A stretch of 48,186 nucleotides of DNA from Zoogloeaceae bacterium (GTDB taxonomy: Bacteria; Pseudomonadota; Gammaproteobacteria; Burkholderiales; Rhodocyclaceae), in NCBI GenBank assembly GCA_031277315.1, contig JAITMP010000008.1, positions 1 to 48,186 of the forward strand, in the 5' to 3' direction. The translations under genes were made by a program, and so were the position numbers. The notes beneath the pieces were generated by a model. It saw only the letters and a program-made list of their open reading frames with translations. It was not told the DNA's origin and did no database searches. Of the stretch, positions 22,746 through 30,847 are shown piece by piece; position 1 is the first letter of the stretch; each line of letters begins with the position of its first letter.

Positions 22746-23159
22746 CTATTCAAACGAGAGAACCAGCCGTTTCCCCAGCGCGGCGGCGGCGCGGTCGAGC
22801 GATTTGAGCGACGGCCAATGCTTCGGGTCTTCGAGACGGCGCGCCGACGGCCAGGATGTTTGCAGCACACGCGCAAGATCGGCCAGGCTGGTTTCGCCGC
22901 GTGCGCGGCGAACGAGCAAGGCCGCCTGCGTTTTGGCGTCCGGCGCAATGTAGCGCGCGCCCGGCGCGTGCGGGGTCGGCGCGGGAATGTCATGCACATC
23001 CTCGAGCTTGATGTCGAGCATGACGGAGAGCACTTCGACCGCGTTAAACAGGGCTTCCTCCGCGGTTTCCCCTTCCGTGAAAATATCGGGAAAGTCGATG
23101 AACTGCACGAAGAAGCCGCCGGCTTGTTCCTCGATGGTTGCGGGATAACGGATGTCCAT
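22746..23159 (-). CDS. hicB: HicB-family antitoxin
   Basis: 137 residues. The N-terminal partial-RNase-H-like HicB fold is YPATIEEQAGGFFVQFIDFPDIFTEGETAEEAL..., with the typical F-DFPD-FT-G-T-EEA signature. It is followed by a C-terminal helix-turn-helix region (about 85-135: LADLARVLQTSWPSARRLED). HicB neutralises the mRNA interferase HicA and represses the operon. An aagga site precedes the ATG. hicA lies immediately upstream with a 10-base gap. Confidence 0.88.
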   Translation of the reverse strand: MDIRYPATIEEQAGGFFVQFIDFPDIFTEGETAEEALFNAVEVLSVMLDIKLEDVHDIPAPTPHAPGARYIAPDAKTQAALLVRRARGETSLADLARVLQTSWPSARRLEDPKHWPSLKSLDRAAAALGKRLVLSFE

Positions 23160-23169
23160 GTCAATGTCC

Positions 23170-23415
23170 TTATTTCAATTTGATACCGGCCTGCCGTTCA
23201 ATGGAGGCCAGCGTTCCCGGTTTCAGGTCGCGATGACCGTGCACCGGCACGGGAACGATCCGGGCGCCATCTGCGCTGACCATGACGTGATGACTGCCGC
23301 TGATGCGCCGCAGCCGCCAGCCGGCGGCTTTCAGTTTTGAGATGACCGTTTTCCCGTCTATGGATTCATTATATATCTTTTTTGATATATTGCGATGACG
23401 ATTCCCCACCCGCAT
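23170..23415 (-). CDS. hicA: HicA-family mRNA interferase toxin, start codon possibly damaged
   Basis: The conserved part is GKTVISKLKAAGWRLRRISG, then SHHVMVSADGARIVPVPVHGHRDLKPGTL, i.e. a complete HicA double-stranded-RNA-binding-like fold with the catalytic His in GSHHVM. The expected start, M-E-S-I-D-G-K, is not there: the DNA reads ATG AAT CCA TAG, and only the next frame reads ESIDGK. The coordinates use the first in-frame ATG (23415), which adds about 18 unusual residues. One missing G after the ATG would explain the data, so the gene may be inactive. Confidence 0.7.
   Translation of the reverse strand: MRVGNRHRNISKKIYNESIDGKTVISKLKAAGWRLRRISGSHHVMVSADGARIVPVPVHGHRDLKPGTLASIERQAGIKLK
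23371..23390. promoter_or_regulatory. AT-rich inverted repeat at the hicAB promoter
   Basis: ATATATC and GATATAT flank six T. On the hicA strand tataat lies directly before the ATG. It is a candidate HicB operator and -10 region; the surrounding DNA is far more AT-rich than the window average. Confidence 0.5.
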
Positions 23416-23508
23416 CCCGACTACGATTTGAGCGTCGACGGCGAGAACATCACGGCCAGCCTGCGCGGGCGGGCAGAGCTTACCCGGAGATTCCCTGCGC
23501 GGTCTTAG
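23395..23508 (+). pseudogene. 5' fragment of a phage late-control D (gpD/baseplate hub) gene
   Basis: 37 codons, beginning MTIPHPHPDYDLSVDGENIT and then ASLRGR. The pattern PDY-L-VDG-ITA-LR-R is that of the N-terminus of phage P2 gpD and its Mu-like relatives. It stops early, with no continuation in any frame that I can follow. It lies opposite the 5' region of hicA. Confidence 0.4.
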
Positions 23509-23804
23509 GCTGGAAGCCAGACTCCCGAAACTGAACCCGTCCTGCACCCCCAGCGCGTTCACAATCACTTGGCCGGCCAGATTGGAGACGGCGGCAGCGG
23601 CCATCGTCCCGGAAATCTTGCTCCCCCGGTAGGCGTCGAATTTCTGGCAGGTATAGTGGTGATACGCCGGTCGGCGGGAGGCAAACGCCACTGATTGGCG
23701 ATATGGGTCATCCCGTGGCGTCAGGATTTTGATGTTGGGCTTCACTATACTCAGTCCAGCCCCGCTCGCTTTCCCAAACGCTTGGGTTTTGTTATCATTC
23801 ACAC

Positions 23805-24053
23805 ATGCCAACTATTTACCGATTGGGTAGCTTGCGTGTGGTCATCTATCCGAACGATCATCGGCCCGCGCACGTCCACATCAAAGGGCAAAGCGGTGAA
23901 GCAGTGTTCATTCTTCACTGCCCCGATGGCCCGCCGGCACTACGCGAAAGCTACGGCTTCGATCGCCCCGATCTGGGGCGTATCAAGGATGCCTTGGCGG
24001 TTGTACTGTCCGCTTTATGTAATGAATGGAGGAATATTCATGGGCATTACTGA
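23805..24053 (+). CDS. DUF4160 protein (putative TA-type partner)
   Basis: 82 residues: MPTIYRLGSLRVVIYPNDHR, then PAHVHIKGQSGEAVFIL, the DUF4160 signature with its HRPAHVHI motif. These small proteins are usually paired with a DUF2442 protein, as here, and are often listed among candidate toxin-antitoxin systems, although no mechanism is established. It overlaps the DUF2442 gene by 14 bases. Confidence 0.85.
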   Translation: MPTIYRLGSLRVVIYPNDHRPAHVHIKGQSGEAVFILHCPDGPPALRESYGFDRPDLGRIKDALAVVLSALCNEWRNIHGHY

Positions 24054-25948: not shown

Positions 25949-27151
25949 TCAGTTGCCGAAGGCCGGGATGTCGGTTTGGGCGCGGCCAAGGATAAGGGCG
26001 TGGATGTCGTGGGTGCCTTCGTAGGTGTTGACGACTTCCAGATTCACCATGTGGCGGATGATGCCGAATTCATCGGAGATGCCGTTGCCGCCGAGCATGT
26101 CGCGCGCCAGACGCGCCACGTCGAGCGCCTTGCCGCAGGAGTTGCGCTTCATGATGGAGGTGATTTCGACTGCGGCGACGCCCTCGTCTTTCATGCGGCC
26201 AAGGCGCAGGCAGCCTTGCAGGCCGAGGGTGATTTCGGTTTGCATGTCGGCGAGTTTTTTCTGGATCAACTGGTTGGCGGCGAGCGGGCGGCCAAACTGT
26301 TTGCGGTCGAGCACGTATTGGCGGGCGCGGAACCAGCAGTCTTCCGCCGCGCCGAGCGCGCCCCAGGCGATGCCGTAGCGGGCCGAGTTGAGGCAGGTGA
26401 AGGGGCCTTTGAGGCCGCTCACGCCCGGCATCAGGTTTTCTTCCGGCACGAAGACTTCGTCCATGACGATCTCGCCGGTGATGGAGGCGCGCAGGCCGAC
26501 CTTGCCGTGGATGGCGGGAGCGGAGAGGCCTTTCATGCCTTTTTCAAGGATGAAGCCGTGAATGACGTTGTCTTCGGTCTTGGCCCAGACGATGAAGACG
26601 TCGGCGATCGGCGAGTTGGAAATCCACATCTTGGTGCCGGAGAGCGAATAGCCGCCCGCCACTTTGCGGGCGCGGGTGACCATGCTGCCGGGGTCGGAGC
26701 CGTGGTTGGGTTCCGTCAGGCCGAAGCAGCCGATCCACTCGCCGGTGGTCAGCTTGGGCAGGTATTTCTGTTTCTGCGCTTCGCTGCCGAACTCGTTGAT
26801 CGGCACCATCACCAGCGAGGATTGCACGCTCATCATCGAGCGGTAGCCGGAGTCGACGCGCTCGACTTCACGGGCGATGAGGCCGTAGCAGACATAGTTG
26901 AGGCCGGCGCCGCCGTATTCGGCGGGGATGGTGGGGCCGAGCAGTCCGAGTTCGCCCATCTCGCGGAAGATGGCCGGATCGGTTTTTTCGTTGCGGAAGG
27001 CTTCCTGAATGCGCGGCGCGAGTTTGTCCTGACAGTATTGATGGGCGGTGTCGCGCACCATGCGTTCTTCTTCGGAGAGTTGCAGGTCGAGGAGGAGGGG
27101 ATCGTCCCACTTGAAGGCGACCTTCTGCTGTTTTCCGTGCGGTTTGTTCAT
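25949..27151 (-). CDS. gcdH: glutaryl-CoA dehydrogenase
   Basis: A 400-residue acyl-CoA dehydrogenase that oxidises and decarboxylates glutaryl-CoA to crotonyl-CoA in lysine, tryptophan and anaerobic aromatic breakdown. Features specific to this branch are [14 protein letters not shown] (carboxylate-binding Arg), [17 protein letters not shown]-binding WISNSP, and [16 protein letters not shown] carrying the catalytic Glu (about E378). The length is typical. It is the last gene of a six-gene leftward operon, 45 bases after the SDR gene. The family fit is strong. Confidence 0.94.
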
Positions 27152-27196: not shown

Positions 27197-27943
27197 TTAA
27201 TGGATCGTCAGCCCGCCGTCCACGGCGAGAATCTGTCCGGTGATGTAGCTCCCCCAGTCGGAGGCGAGAAAAACGAAAGCGGGCGCGACTTCGTGCGGCT
27301 CGGCCCAGCGGCCAAGGGGAATGCGTTCGAGATATTTGTCCTTGAAGCGGTCGTCGGTGCGGATCACTTCGGTCATCGGCGTGGCGGCGCCCGGCGCGAT
27401 GGCGTTGACCGTGATGCCGTAGCGCCCGAGTTCCTTGGCCGCCGATTTGGTCATGCCGGCGATGGCGGCCTTGGCAGCGCTGTAGTTGATCTGGCCGATG
27501 GTGCCGAGCAGCCCCGCCGTCGACGTGACGTTGATGACGCGGCCGAACTTGCGCTCGATCATGCCGTTCACCACCGCCTGCAGACAATAGAAACTGCCGT
27601 TCATGTGCACGTCGATGACTTGCTGCCATTGTTCCGGCGTCATCTTGTGCAGCATGGCGGTGCGGGTGATGCCGGCGTTGTTGACCAGAATGTCGACGCG
27701 GCCCCATGCGGCGGTGACATCGGCGGCCATGCGGTTGACCGATTCGCGCTCGGCGACGTTGCAGGTGAAGCCGCGCGCTTCGCCGCCAGCGCGGCGGATG
27801 TCGGCGGCGACGGCTTCAGCCGCTTCGGCGTTCATGTCGATGACCGCGACTTTCGCGCCCTCATCGGCATAGGCCCGCGCGATGGCGGCGCCGATGCCCT
27901 GACCGGCGCCGGTGATGATTGCAACCTTGTCTTTCAAAAACAT
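27197..27943 (-). CDS. SDR-family 3-oxoacyl/3-hydroxyacyl-CoA reductase (FabG/PhaB-like)
   Basis: 248 residues. The cofactor motif is TGAGQGIG, NNAGITRTAML follows, and the catalytic residues are Ser in VTSTAGLLG and Tyr/Lys in NYSAAKAAIAGM. The C-terminus is TGQILAVDGGLTIH. Given its place between gcdH and an ATC-hydrolase-like gene, a role on a CoA thioester in the same pathway is likely, but the substrate is unknown. I set the start at the ATG at 27943, preceded by ggagg. Confidence 0.88.
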   Translation of the reverse strand: MFLKDKVAIITGAGQGIGAAIARAYADEGAKVAVIDMNAEAAEAVAADIRRAGGEARGFTCNVAERESVNRMAADVTAAWGRVDILVNNAGITRTAMLHKMTPEQWQQVIDVHMNGSFYCLQAVVNGMIERKFGRVINVTSTAGLLGTIGQINYSAAKAAIAGMTKSAAKELGRYGITVNAIAPGAATPMTEVIRTDDRFKDKYLERIPLGRWAEPHEVAPAFVFLASDWGSYITGQILAVDGGLTIH

Positions 27944-28006: not shown

Positions 28007-28516
28007 TTATGCGCTCAGCGTGAACCGCCGGGTGCACGTCGCGTCGCCGTTCGGCAACAGGCTTTCCGTGATGACATTCACCTTGGGCGAGATGGTCCGG
28101 CCCGCCACCTGGAACCAGAGATCGCAGCCTTTGCCGCAGCGGTTCGGCAGGCCGGCGGCGCGGAAGGAATCCATCCACGGGCAGGCGGTGTGCACCACCA
28201 GAACGTCATTGCCGTCTTTCTCCATGCGCGCCGTTTCGCCCATCACGTCGCTGGCGCGCTGCATGGTGAAGGCGATCCGCTCCAGATCCTCCGGCTTGCC
28301 GCCGCGTTCCAGATACATCTTGCCGGTGCCGACGCCGACGTTTTCCCAGAAGGCGAGTTCCATGTCCATCGCCGCCGCTTCGCCCAGCTTGTCCTGCGCC
28401 GCCTTGCGCCAGGCGTGGAAGAAATCATGGGTGATGCGGATCATGGATTGCCAGTCGCGCTCCTTGCGCGCCAGCGCCTGCGCCAGATCGGCGCCGCTTT
28501 TTTCCGTGCTGTTCAT
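28007..28516 (-). CDS. ATC-hydrolase-like protein
   Basis: 169 residues resembling the L-2-amino-thiazoline-4-carboxylic acid hydrolase family (Pfam-style ATC_hydrolase). It has an N-terminal helical region with FFHAWRK, the central MGETARMEKDGNDVLVVHTACPWMD, and a Cys-rich part, RCGKGCDLWFQ, ending with CTRRF. Most members of this family have no proven ATC activity and occur in anaerobes beside oxidoreductases. The Cys pattern suggests thiol chemistry or metal binding. Its start overlaps the stop of the zinc-ribbon gene by four bases. Confidence 0.65.
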   Translation of the reverse strand: MNSTEKSGADLAQALARKERDWQSMIRITHDFFHAWRKAAQDKLGEAAAMDMELAFWENVGVGTGKMYLERGGKPEDLERIAFTMQRASDVMGETARMEKDGNDVLVVHTACPWMDSFRAAGLPNRCGKGCDLWFQVAGRTISPKVNVITESLLPNGDATCTRRFTLSA

Positions 28517-28701
28517 GCGGGCTTCCCTTTCTCGTTTCGCTGCGCGGTGAATTCCGCCAGCGCTTGTTTGAATTCGGCTTCCATCTCCGGCGTGACGGCC
28601 GCGCTGCACTCGTAGCAGGTATTCGTCATGCGGTCGAACCAGCGGCAGCCGCACTGGTCGCAGGCGAGTTCCGGCGCTCCGGCCGGGTTGCGGAAAATCA
28701 T
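28513..28701 (-). CDS. small zinc-ribbon-like protein
   Basis: 62 residues: MIFRNPAGAPELACDQCGCR, then WFDRMTNTCYECSAAVTPEM and a charged helix. Two CxxC knuckles (CDQC and CYEC) separated by 14 residues could hold one zinc. It is too small to be an enzyme; an adaptor or metal-binding accessory is likely. It overlaps both neighbours by four bases (ATGA at each junction), which shows it is a true operon member. The ATG at 28701 is preferred over an upstream TTG. Confidence 0.7.
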   Translation of the reverse strand: MIFRNPAGAPELACDQCGCRWFDRMTNTCYECSAAVTPEMEAEFKQALAEFTAQRNEKGKPA

Positions 28702-29165
28702 CGGCAAGCTCCCAGAAAAGCCAGGCCGAGGGTATCGAGAAATTCCTCGTAGCCCGCGTCCTGTAGTTCGTATTTCGTGCGCATGACGAAGAACATGATG
28801 TTGCCCGAGCGGATCTGCCGCTTCATCAGCGAGAGCGTTTCGTCGCCGATGTTGCCGCGCAGTTTCTCCATCGCCTCGGCGTCGGCGACGAAGAGCAGGT
28901 CGACCTTCGCCTCCTGAAAGCCGCGATACGGCACTCGCGCCGCGCGGACGCCGCCCGGCACGATCTCCCAGCGCAGCATCTCGCCGGCGCCCTCGGCGCC
29001 CATCAGTCCGGCGACGTGCTTGCCGGGCTGAATGCCGGACCCTTCCTTCGGCACGATCGCCACGCTTGATCCCGGCGTCATGTCGGTGAACAACTCGGCG
29101 TGGCGGTCCAGCATCGCCTGCCAGTCCGCCAGTTCGCCAAAAATATCTGTCGCCAGGGCGCTCAT
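28698..29165 (-). CDS. unknown protein, paralog of the next gene upstream
   Basis: 155 residues, soluble, family not recognised. It shares with the protein at 29171-29572 the landmarks WQAML near the N-terminus, LLFVADAEAM in the middle and ELQDAGYEEFLDTLGLAF at the end, in the same order and spacing. It also has a middle segment, VPKEGSGIQPGKHVAGLMGA. It could form a heterodimer with its paralog. The short gap (5 bases) and ATGA overlap to the zinc-ribbon gene show tight coupling. Confidence 0.7.
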   Translation of the reverse strand: MSALATDIFGELADWQAMLDRHAELFTDMTPGSSVAIVPKEGSGIQPGKHVAGLMGAEGAGEMLRWEIVPGGVRAARVPYRGFQEAKVDLLFVADAEAMEKLRGNIGDETLSLMKRQIRSGNIMFFVMRTKYELQDAGYEEFLDTLGLAFLGACR

Positions 29166-29170
29166 ATTAT

Positions 29171-29572
29171 TCAGTGTTTCGGAAAAACCAGCCCGAGATC
29201 CTCGACGAAGCCGGCCAGTCCGGCCTCCTCAAGCTCATCCAGGGTTTTCAGCATATACGGATGCAAGCGGCCTTGCCGGATCAAAATCGGCAGCGGCTGC
29301 CAGCCATCTTCCTGCACGGTTGCCAGCGCCTTGTCGTCCGCCACCAGCAATATTGCCACGTCGTCGCCGGGCGTGCCGCTATACTCACGCAAATCCGCCC
29401 GGCAACCGGCGGCATCGCTGCGCCAGAGGAGCAGGGTGCCGCGGCGGGCGGCGAAATCCTGCCGGCGCAACAGGCCGATGGACGCGCTCGACGGCGGCAT
29501 GCCCTCACGATTCAACATCGCCTGCCAACTCGCGCGATTGAAAAATTCGTCTTCCATCAAAGCCCACAGCAT
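29171..29572 (-). CDS. unknown protein, first gene of the gcdH operon
   Basis: 133 residues from the ATG at 29572; an ATG at 29557 (MEDEFFNRASWQAML) is also possible, and neither has a strong ribosome-binding site. It matches the protein at 28698-29165 at WQAML, ILLVADDKAL and MLKTLDELEEAGLAGFVEDL. It contains no catalytic motif that I know. It is nearest to the divergent promoter region with the TGCA repeats. Confidence 0.68.
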   Translation of the reverse strand: MLWALMEDEFFNRASWQAMLNREGMPPSSASIGLLRRQDFAARRGTLLLWRSDAAGCRADLREYSGTPGDDVAILLVADDKALATVQEDGWQPLPILIRQGRLHPYMLKTLDELEEAGLAGFVEDLGLVFPKH

Positions 29573-29671: not shown

Positions 29672-29692
29672 GAACAATTGGGAGCGGAGCCG

Positions 29693-30847
29693 ATGAAATC
29701 AGCCAGCGGAATTGAAAGCGGGATTGACCTGAATGCCTTGTCAAGCCGCTCGCGCCCGGTCGTGGCGCGGGCGATCACCCTGCTCGAAAACGACCGGCCG
29801 GGGGCGGCGGAATTGATGGCCGAACTGGCGCCGCGCCGCGGCCGTGCTGATGTCGTCGGCATTACCGGGGCGCCGGGGGCGGGCAAGTCCACCCTCATTA
29901 ACGCCTTGCTCGGGGAATTCACGCGGCGCGGGCGCAGCGTCGCCGTCGTCGCCGTCGATCCGTCCAGCCCGATCAGCGGCGGCTCGATTCTCGGCGACCG
30001 CGTGCGCATGGATGAACACGGCGCGCACGACGCGGTTTTCATCCGCTCGGTGTCCTCGCGCGGACACCTCGGCGGCTTGTCGAAGACGGCCGGCCGCGTC
30101 ATCGACCTGTTCGATGCCGTCGGTTACGATGTCGTCATCGTTGAGACGGTCGGCGCCGGTCAGTCGGAGGTGGAGATCCGTGATTTCGCCGACACCAATA
30201 TCGTGGTCTGCCCGCCCGGACTGGGCGACGACGTGCAGGCCATCAAGGCCGGCATCATCGAGATCGCCGATCTGCTGGTGGTCAACAAGGCCGATCTGCC
30301 GCAGGCGGAACGCGCCATGCTCGATTTGACCACGGCGGCGCAGTTGCGCCGCCGCGCCGACTGGAAGGTGCGGGTGCTACGCACCGTGGCAACCAGCGGC
30401 GATGGCGTCGCCGCGCTGGTCGACGCCATCGACGAGCATATCGCCGCCACCGGCAACGGCAAGCGGCTGAAAAAATCCGCCGCCGTTTCTGCTCCGCGAG
30501 AAGAGCGCGAAGGGGAACGCATCGGGCCGGTTGCCGACGCCGACCTGTTCACCCAACTGCAACGCTGGCGCGCCGCCGGCAAGGGCGTCGCGCTGGCGAC
30601 GGTGGTGAAGACCTGGGGCTCCTCGCCGCGCCCGGAAGGCAGCCATCTGGCGGTGGAGGAGAACGGCGCTTTCGTCGGCTCGGTTTCCGGCGGCTGCATC
30701 GAAGGCGCGGTGATTGGCGAAGCGCAAGCCGTCATCGCGGACGGCCAGCCGCGCCTGCTCGAGTTCGGCGTTTCCGACGAACGCGCATGGGAAGTCGGCC
30801 TCGCATGCGGCGGCCGCGTGCAGGTTTTCGTCGAGCGCGTGGGATAG
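29693..30847 (+). CDS. fusion of a MeaB/ArgK-type GTPase and an XdhC/CoxI domain
   Basis: 384 residues. Residues about 1-255 are a MeaB-type G3E GTPase: P-loop GAPGAGKST (59-67), VDPSSPISGGSILGDRVRM, ETVGAGQSEV and NKAD (198-201). MeaB proteins gate cofactor loading of B12 mutases. After a charged linker (256-283), residues about 285-384 are an XdhC/CoxI N-terminal domain: TVVKTWGSSPRPEGSHLAVE, SGGCIEG, CGGRVQVFVE. XdhC proteins carry and protect sulfurated molybdenum cofactor for hydroxylases. The C-terminal Rossmann domain of full XdhC is missing. The frame is continuous across both parts. The start is at ATG 29693, with ggagcggag upstream. Confidence 0.88.
   Translation: MKSASGIESGIDLNALSSRSRPVVARAITLLENDRPGAAELMAELAPRRGRADVVGITGAPGAGKSTLINALLGEFTRRGRSVAVVAVDPSSPISGGSILGDRVRMDEHGAHDAVFIRSVSSRGHLGGLSKTAGRVIDLFDAVGYDVVIVETVGAGQSEVEIRDFADTNIVVCPPGLGDDVQAIKAGIIEIADLLVVNKADLPQAERAMLDLTTAAQLRRRADWKVRVLRTVATSGDGVAALVDAIDEHIAATGNGKRLKKSAAVSAPREEREGERIGPVADADLFTQLQRWRAAGKGVALATVVKTWGSSPRPEGSHLAVEENGAFVGSVSGGCIEGAVIGEAQAVIADGQPRLLEFGVSDERAWEVGLACGGRVQVFVERVG

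Follow-up and report, generated by a model that had tools for sequence, protein, structure and literature searches.

The window analysed here, the whole 48,186-nucleotide stretch of a Zoogloeaceae bacterium contig, contains one uninterrupted reading frame (29693-30847, forward strand; 384 residues plus stop, coding 29693-30844 by translation) in which a MeaB-type GTPase is joined to part of an XdhC/CoxI protein (Table 1). An earlier note, made from the letters alone, had read two chaperone types into this one chain, and profile searches bear this out. The MeaB half scored 306.8 bits against Pfam PF03308 (cut-off 23.1; E 1.3e-91, residues 25-261; E 6.3e-92 in a profile search of the contigs of the same genome) and 322.9 bits against NCBIfam TIGR00750, above its cut-off of 240.75, while it stayed under the cut-off of NF006958 (248.6 bits against 329). 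The XdhC half scored 92.7 bits against PF02625 (cut-off 24.3; E 1.4e-26) and covered all 68 of 68 profile positions. The PF03308 match stops at profile position 247 of 273 and is followed by a linker and then XdhC; because the C-terminal dimerization extension of standalone MeaB is missing, the protein is best described as a MeaB-domain protein and not as a standalone MeaB. On the XdhC side, only the N-terminal domain is fused, and the Rossmann domain (XdhC_C) is not part of the same chain in this genome. A structure model built from 21 sequences (mean pLDDT 70.1, pTM 0.60) showed secondary structure in both parts, with linker residues 259-280 below pLDDT 50, and is too weak to judge an interface between MeaB and XdhC.

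Table 1. Features of the fusion gene and its neighbors (positions in the window)
Feature	Position	Strand	Basis or remark
HicB-like antitoxin and HicA toxin genes	22746..23811	-	
Acyl-CoA dehydrogenase with YEG motif, glutaryl-CoA dehydrogenase type according to the earlier note	25949..27151	-	Beside the fusion in the closest relatives
FabG-like short-chain dehydrogenase	27197..27943	-	Family match
ATC_hydrolase family protein	28007..28516	-	PF14196, 40.1 bits
DUFa	28698..29165	-	No family match; near the fusion or an unfused XdhC cassette in relatives
DUFb	29171..29572	-	No family match; beside the fusion in 10/10 loci (L005-L014)
GGGAG, ribosome-binding-site-like	29680..29684	+	8 bases 5' of the ATG, read in the sequence
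MeaB-XdhC_CoxI fusion gene, 384 residues plus stop	29693..30847	+	Translation, Pfam, relatives
MeaB GTPase domain, residues 25-261	29765..30475	+	PF03308
P-loop GAPGAGKS, residues 59-66	29867..29890	+	Aligned with K68/S69 of M. extorquens MeaB
Switch I, D89-R105 (MeaB D92-R108)	29957..30007	+	Alignment to M. extorquens MeaB
Switch II region, E151-Q157 (MeaB E154-Q160)	30143..30163	+	Alignment to M. extorquens MeaB
Switch III core, D179, Q182, K185 (MeaB D182, Q185, K188)	30227..30247	+	Alignment
Linker, variable in length and sequence among fusions	30467..30550	+	Alignment; structure model
XdhC_CoxI domain, residues 292-359	30566..30769	+	PF02625
SGGC motif, residues 332-335	30686..30697	+	Alignment of 21 proteins
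ACGG motif, residues 371-374	30803..30814	+	Alignment of 21 proteins

Two of the neighbors, DUFa and DUFb, match nothing in Pfam or NCBIfam; the best solved-structure match of a DUFa profile had an E-value of 0.039, and the C-terminal end of DUFa (LGLAFLGACR) is invariant in 18 aligned copies. In most of the carriers fetched both genes are neighbors of the fusion, and in some genomes without a fusion they lie close to the XdhC cassette; neither was seen at the single fusion locus found outside the family (G495, see below). They may be unknown members of the same maturation system.

Conservation of the junction and constraint on both halves

The junction is in frame, with zero internal stops, in 20 of 20 translated sequences including the window (reading frames taken from the match start in each), which come from 20 different contigs. 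A sequencing error at the junction was rejected, since the same junction occurs in all 20 sequences, four of them from single-contig assemblies (G010, G073, G137 and G044); separate MeaB and XdhC genes were encountered in the more distant genomes G117, G001 and G132. Ten MeaB residues (K68, S69, D92, D105, R108, E154, Q160, D182, Q185 and K188, M. extorquens numbering), which two structural papers describe as making contacts in the active state with GTP, with the partner subunit or among themselves (PMC9974510, PMC10481361), are identical in 20/20 fusions. When 11 fusions and 10 unfused XdhCs were aligned, the SGGC and ACGG motifs of XdhC showed no variation across the 21 proteins, so that the motifs of both halves are intact, as first noticed from the window sequence. 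Across ten pairs computed, dN/dS ranged from 0.09 to 0.29 in the MeaB half and from 0.05 to 0.30 in the XdhC half, and between the window and five relatives it was 0.14-0.19 and 0.06-0.12, respectively; judged by these ratios, both halves are under purifying selection. A degenerate XdhC half, the other outcome of concern in the earlier note, was rejected on the low dN/dS and the invariant motifs. That the gene is a non-functional chimera, left by a deletion and now drifting, is scarcely credible: the window's fusion does lie away from both the iaa-like operon and the other cassette genes (described below), yet it is constrained relative to the five relatives at the ratios just given, and its partner genes are intact frames on two other contigs (C4 and C10).

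The molybdenum maturation cassette

In most of the relatives fetched, the fusion is surrounded by genes for XdhC_C (PF13478), a MobA-like-transferase protein, a SufS-family cysteine desulfurase and a NifU-like protein. In the window's own genome (G000; 2.41 Mb, 50 contigs, 98.4% complete), the fusion is followed by a tRNA and mnmC, and the cassette is found intact on contig C4, where XdhC_C is a separate gene (L133:8945-9643) and the cassette is followed by what we take, by resemblance, to be molybdate transporter genes. The best NCBIfam model for the MocA-like gene was MocA (157 bits, under the cut-off of 186.45), and that for the cysteine desulfurase was SufS (483.4 bits, above the cut-off). 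No second XdhC_CoxI domain and no second MeaB match above 20 bits were found in this genome. A loss of the molybdenum partners from this genome was also considered, and was rejected on the intact frames on C4 and C10. In Rhodobacter capsulatus, XdhC is described as bringing the molybdenum cofactor to a cysteine desulfurase, with sulfuration preceding insertion (passages of PMC2997495).

A wider comparison was offered by 70 mostly alphaproteobacterial loci that matched the XdhC part only. All 70 carry XdhC_C, and most carry MocA-like (66), coxE (61) and coxD (55) genes; MeaB occurred in 0/70, within the DNA fetched around each, with one locus (L039) ending at a contig edge and possibly being a fusion cut by the contig end. 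Because none of these loci carries MeaB, molybdenum maturation would not generally need it.

A candidate client operon, probably for indoleacetate degradation

Candidate clients for both halves lie on contig C10 of the same genome, where genes for a thiolase-like protein, a CoA ligase, HyuA, HyuB, an acyl-CoA dehydrogenase, a B12-binding subunit and a mutase are followed on the same strand by three molybdenum hydroxylase subunits (L131:11938-15942), a MoaD-like gene and a CaiB-type CoA transferase; the operon also holds a hydroxyacyl-CoA dehydrogenase, and an indolepyruvate-oxidoreductase-like gene lies downstream. The B12-dependent acyl-CoA mutase gene stands directly before the hydroxylase genes. 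The mutase and B12 subunit scored above their NCBIfam cut-offs, the hydroxylase large subunit, HyuA, acyl-CoA dehydrogenase and CoA transferase fell into the expected families under the single-function cut-offs, and the CoA ligase, HyuB and remaining genes were named by eye. A molybdenum hydroxylase reportedly has a role in the indoleacetate pathway, as Ebenau-Jehle and colleagues are said to have described in 2012. In the account given in parts of PMC8360864, the anaerobic pathway comprises the IaaB ligase, the IaaL CoA transferase, the IaaGH mutase and the IaaF dehydrogenase, and a GGG in place of YEG is a hallmark of IaaF enzymes; the 2-oxoindoleacetyl-CoA lactamase is described as being of hydantoinase type (parts of PMC5214803). 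The C10 acyl-CoA dehydrogenase has GGG where most have YEG, and the same motif was present at 17 of 17 loci checked (16 genomes, one counted twice). From its gene content and this one motif, the C10 operon is most likely one for anaerobic indoleacetate degradation (iaa), with indoleacetate as the presumed substrate.

The own hydroxylase subunits share 78-91% identity with those of G017, G078 and G006 (L135, L139 and L141) and just 50-62% with those of genus mates, whereas the own mutase is 91% identical to that of genus mates; the hydroxylase genes therefore seem to have been exchanged.

The operon bears on several proposals of the earlier note. The idea that the protein is a GTP-driven factor maturing a molybdenum hydroxylase, possibly one with a CoA thioester as substrate, is upheld with respect to the hydroxylase, whose best NCBIfam model is the 4-hydroxybenzoyl-CoA reductase alpha subunit (575.5 bits, under the cut-off of 994.55), but not with respect to the GTPase, for which an ordinary B12 mutase is available as a candidate client: since a B12-dependent acyl-CoA mutase is encoded in the same operon, the GTPase need not be diverted to molybdenum. 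The adjacent gcdH operon, to which a link was suggested, is kept in the closest relatives, but the candidate clients lie elsewhere, on C10. The note sought clients inside the window only; a candidate mutase and hydroxylase could be named elsewhere in the same genome.

Distribution, domain architectures and phylogeny

Among the best 80 of 183 matches of a species-genome scan, the whole fusion was found at 10 loci (L005-L014) with 66-86% identity, and within the same family it is carried by 12 of 150 genomes, the own genome included. In the searches of the order and the class, matches had to reach E 1e-60 and no more than four or five candidates were scored in each genome; on these terms, 399 genomes of the order yielded one fusion besides our own, in a member of another family (G495), where it adjoins XdhC_C, an indolepyruvate-oxidoreductase-like gene and an iaa-type binding-protein gene, and 369 genomes of the class yielded none besides our own. 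As far as sampled, the fusion is common to several genera and mainly restricted to this family.

Related architectures extend this picture. XdhC_C continues in frame after the fusion in four relatives (L007, L009, L013 and G044), and L007 has three Pfam domains (MeaB, XdhC_CoxI and XdhC_C) in one chain. Two species of another genus (G017 and G078), whose MeaBs are 65-68% identical, carry a different fusion: in G017 a close MeaB (67-68%) is joined in one frame to a MocA-like protein, with both domains recognized by Pfam and the iaa operon on a different contig, and in G078 the MeaB-MocA-like frame is open over the 761 residues fetched, with one TGA further on in the MocA match. Ten proteins with related MeaBs were scanned for further domains, and four of them (L194, L195, L199 and L100) have a 4HBT thioesterase-like domain C-terminal to MeaB; other related MeaBs show a FAD-binding match (L099), a short nitroreductase match (L193) or, after the GTPase, a weak XdhC_C-like match of 22.5 bits, under the cut-off of 29.7 (L197).

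Separate versions of both halves also occur in genomes with iaa genes. In G117 and G001 an unfused MeaB (50-52%) is divergent from the gene that opens the iaa operon, and a short unfused XdhC belongs to a cassette of its own. G132 has a MeaB (57%) divergent from the iaa genes, with XdhC and XdhC_C on its other side; its first iaa genes lie at a contig end, and no iaa mutase was found in this genome, which may be a missed case, its contig ending within the iaa genes. Unfused related MeaBs were found in 11 genomes from other families of the order, and among the eight stretches fetched, six have a mutase gene within 1 kb of the MeaB and L210 has one within 3 kb; none was found in L207.

In a MeaB tree of 58 rows, the window and its nearest rows, 11 in all and every one a fusion, form a clade (100/99), which the MeaB-MocA pair joins at just 85/70. 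The iaa-divergent MeaBs of G117, G001 and G132 fall outside this clade, a placement that points to more than one acquisition of a MeaB at the iaa operon, although the five iaa operon surroundings without a MeaB (see below) speak against this. Fifteen canonical MeaBs form a supported clade (100/100) apart from the window's MeaB; row labels were partly set without a neighbor check, and three of 18 rows labeled canonical (L107, L108 and L110) were placed elsewhere. The tree leaves its backbone unresolved; four changes are needed to explain the fusion label, and a single origin of the fusion may still be accommodated.

Association of the fusion with the mutase and the hydroxylase

The iaa mutase (76-100% identity) was detected in 19 of the 150 family genomes, namely 12/12 fusion carriers versus 7/138 others (Fisher p 3e-13; at genus level 6/6 versus 4/62, p 2e-6; both tests ignore kinship). 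Fusion and mutase share a contig in 8 of the 12 carriers, 11-57 kb apart, of which G009 says little because its contig is just 83 kb, and they lie on different contigs in the other four, the own genome included. The fusion is not required for the iaa mutase, since seven genomes carry the mutase without it; moreover, the approximately 20 kb fetched around the iaa operons of five of them (G006, G119, G055, G017 and G078) showed no MeaB.

In 10 of the 12 carriers, mutases and MeaB-type G domains are equally numerous, and in these ten a canonical MeaB lies about 1.3 kb or less from the methylmalonyl-CoA mutase; IcmF has its own G domain, and G004 contains a further mutase/G-domain pair. With the other mutases having their own G proteins, the iaa mutase is left for the fusion. 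For these counts, split pieces were joined in G009 and G095, in G004 a mutase fragment and a G-domain fragment from two contigs were counted as one IcmF, and short matches below 25 bits, four of them above the curated cut-off, were dropped. The two exceptions are G010 (three mutases, two G domains) and the own genome (two mutases, one G domain). No canonical MeaB was found in the own genome or in the single-contig G010, although a methylmalonyl-CoA mutase is present, and for this reason the fusion may also serve that enzyme; the methylmalonyl-CoA mutase of these two genomes must be served by the fusion or by another factor, or need none.

The same counts bear on a different reading, along the lines of the earlier note, in which the GTPase half no longer serves B12 and instead gates the insertion or sulfuration of the molybdenum cofactor, as a GTP-driven XdhC. 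The position of the fusion among XdhC_C, MocA-like, SufS-type desulfurase and NifU-like genes, the joining of a close MeaB to a MocA-like protein in G017 and G078 and the sub-threshold XdhC_C-like match of L197 would all fit such a switch, but the checked MeaB switch I, II and III residues are kept in 20/20 fusions, the iaa mutase would be partnerless in the pairing counts without the fusion, and MeaB is missing from all 70 XdhC-only loci (L039 being cut by its contig end). We regard this reading as unlikely.

On the molybdenum side, the fusion is the sole XdhC_CoxI protein above the cut-off in 8/12 carriers, with others present in G100, G004, G044 and G095. At least one enzyme with a MoCoBD_1 domain was found in 12/12 carriers and three in the own genome, and in the 99%-complete G121 the fusion is the sole XdhC_CoxI protein and the iaa hydroxylase the sole MoCoBD_1 enzyme found. 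A coxSLM-like enzyme is encoded 3' of the fusion in G010, G073, L008, L011 and L012 and is a possible further XdhC client in those genomes. As a general client it was rejected, since 2/12 carriers have that coxL and G121 has the iaa hydroxylase alone. The corresponding alternative, in which the XdhC half serves this downstream enzyme and has only a chance association with the iaa operon, draws on the orthologues of coxS, coxL, coxM, coxD, coxE and coxG that follow the fusion in L005 (genome G010), L008, L011 and G073, and on the coxS, coxL and start of coxM seen in the stretch fetched for L012; given that this coxL occurs at 90% identity or more in only G010 and G073 among the carriers, and that G121 has only the iaa enzyme, we consider it very improbable.

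Discussion

We conclude that the fusion is probably a dual-cofactor maturation chaperone for the mutase and the molybdenum hydroxylase of one pathway, most likely anaerobic indoleacetate degradation, a reading drawn from sequence comparison. In the proposed mechanism, GTP binding and hydrolysis by the MeaB half would hold the IaaGH-type mutase open for the entry of adenosylcobalamin, as MeaB does for methylmalonyl-CoA mutase, and the XdhC_CoxI half, helped by XdhC_C (separate, or fused in four relatives), the MocA-like transferase and the cysteine desulfurase, would carry and sulfurate the molybdenum cofactor needed by the hydroxylase of that operon, an enzyme of the xanthine dehydrogenase family. 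We infer that the fusion acts physically on both clients, and the simplest account of why this pair of chaperones became fused is that both clients share one pathway.

The architecture also points to how the protein may assemble. MeaB is described as working in dimeric form: switch III from one subunit extends to the GTP of its partner, and the C-terminal extension takes part in dimerization (sections of PMC9974510); R. capsulatus XdhC is likewise described as a dimer (sections of PMC2997495). As the fusion lacks the MeaB extension and XdhC is itself a dimer, we infer by analogy that the fusion dimerizes through XdhC; the XdhC domain would take the place of the C-terminal dimerization arm, and an XdhC dimer may join two GTPase domains. 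A more far-reaching, and rather doubtful, version is that of one machine, in which loading of XdhC with the molybdenum cofactor would set the dimer state needed for GTP hydrolysis. If so, the insertions of adenosylcobalamin and sulfurated molybdenum cofactor would be coordinated, and the pathway would obtain both metalloenzymes or neither. At the other extreme, the fusion could be a co-expression device whose halves act separately on their clients with nothing coupled, for which the variable linker of low model confidence and the separate versions of both halves in the iaa-bearing G117 and G001 can be cited; a weak point against it is that the MeaB match stops before the dimerization arm and that relatives carry other C-terminal domains there (4HBT in 4/10), which hints at a structural role for the partner domain, and we hold this uncoupled arrangement to be quite improbable.

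The dual-cofactor chaperone proposed here can be compared with several known systems. It shares the P-loop and the switch I-III residues with MeaB/MMAA, the methylmalonyl-CoA mutase chaperone (TIGR00750, PF03308; structures 2QM7 and 8DPB), but has XdhC_CoxI in place of the C-terminal dimerization helices and stands apart from the canonical MeaB clade. With the XdhC/CoxI chaperone (PF02625 plus PF13478; structures 2WE7 and 3ON5) it shares a complete PF02625 domain with SGGC and ACGG, and the XdhC_C, MocA-like and cysteine desulfurase genes are likewise present in the own genome; here, however, the chaperone is split, with the Rossmann domain as a separate protein and the N-terminal domain joined to a GTPase. 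IcmF, an isobutyryl-CoA mutase fused to a G protein, similarly has a MeaB-type G domain covalently joined to a part of a maturation system, but there the G domain is joined to its client mutase and here to a second chaperone for another cofactor. The fusion of G017 likewise combines a close MeaB with a molybdenum maturation protein in a genome with the iaa operon, its partner being a MocA-like nucleotidyltransferase and not XdhC. The YqeC-type accessory protein of selenium-dependent molybdenum hydroxylases is also a P-loop protein in molybdenum hydroxylase maturation, although it is not known to belong to the MeaB family.

Within the library searched, no paper names MeaB together with XdhC, and no such fusion appears in the titles and abstract openings of the matches listed in two further searches (8 of 22 and 12 of 265); the genome paper of one fusion carrier, Ca. 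Desulfobacillus denitrificans, for which a metatranscriptome is available (PMC8402940), has 0 mentions of indole, mutase and cobalamin, and the word chaperone has 0 occurrences in the main text of the iaa paper PMC8360864. The fusion brings B12 and molybdenum, two unrelated metal cofactors, together at the level of maturation in a single chain, and it offers candidate maturation factors for both the iaa mutase and the iaa hydroxylase; the proposal is directly testable because named candidate clients exist for both halves. In addition, MeaB domains that end before the dimerization arm and continue into an XdhC, MocA-like, thioesterase-like or FAD-binding domain constitute a natural experiment on MeaB dimer formation.
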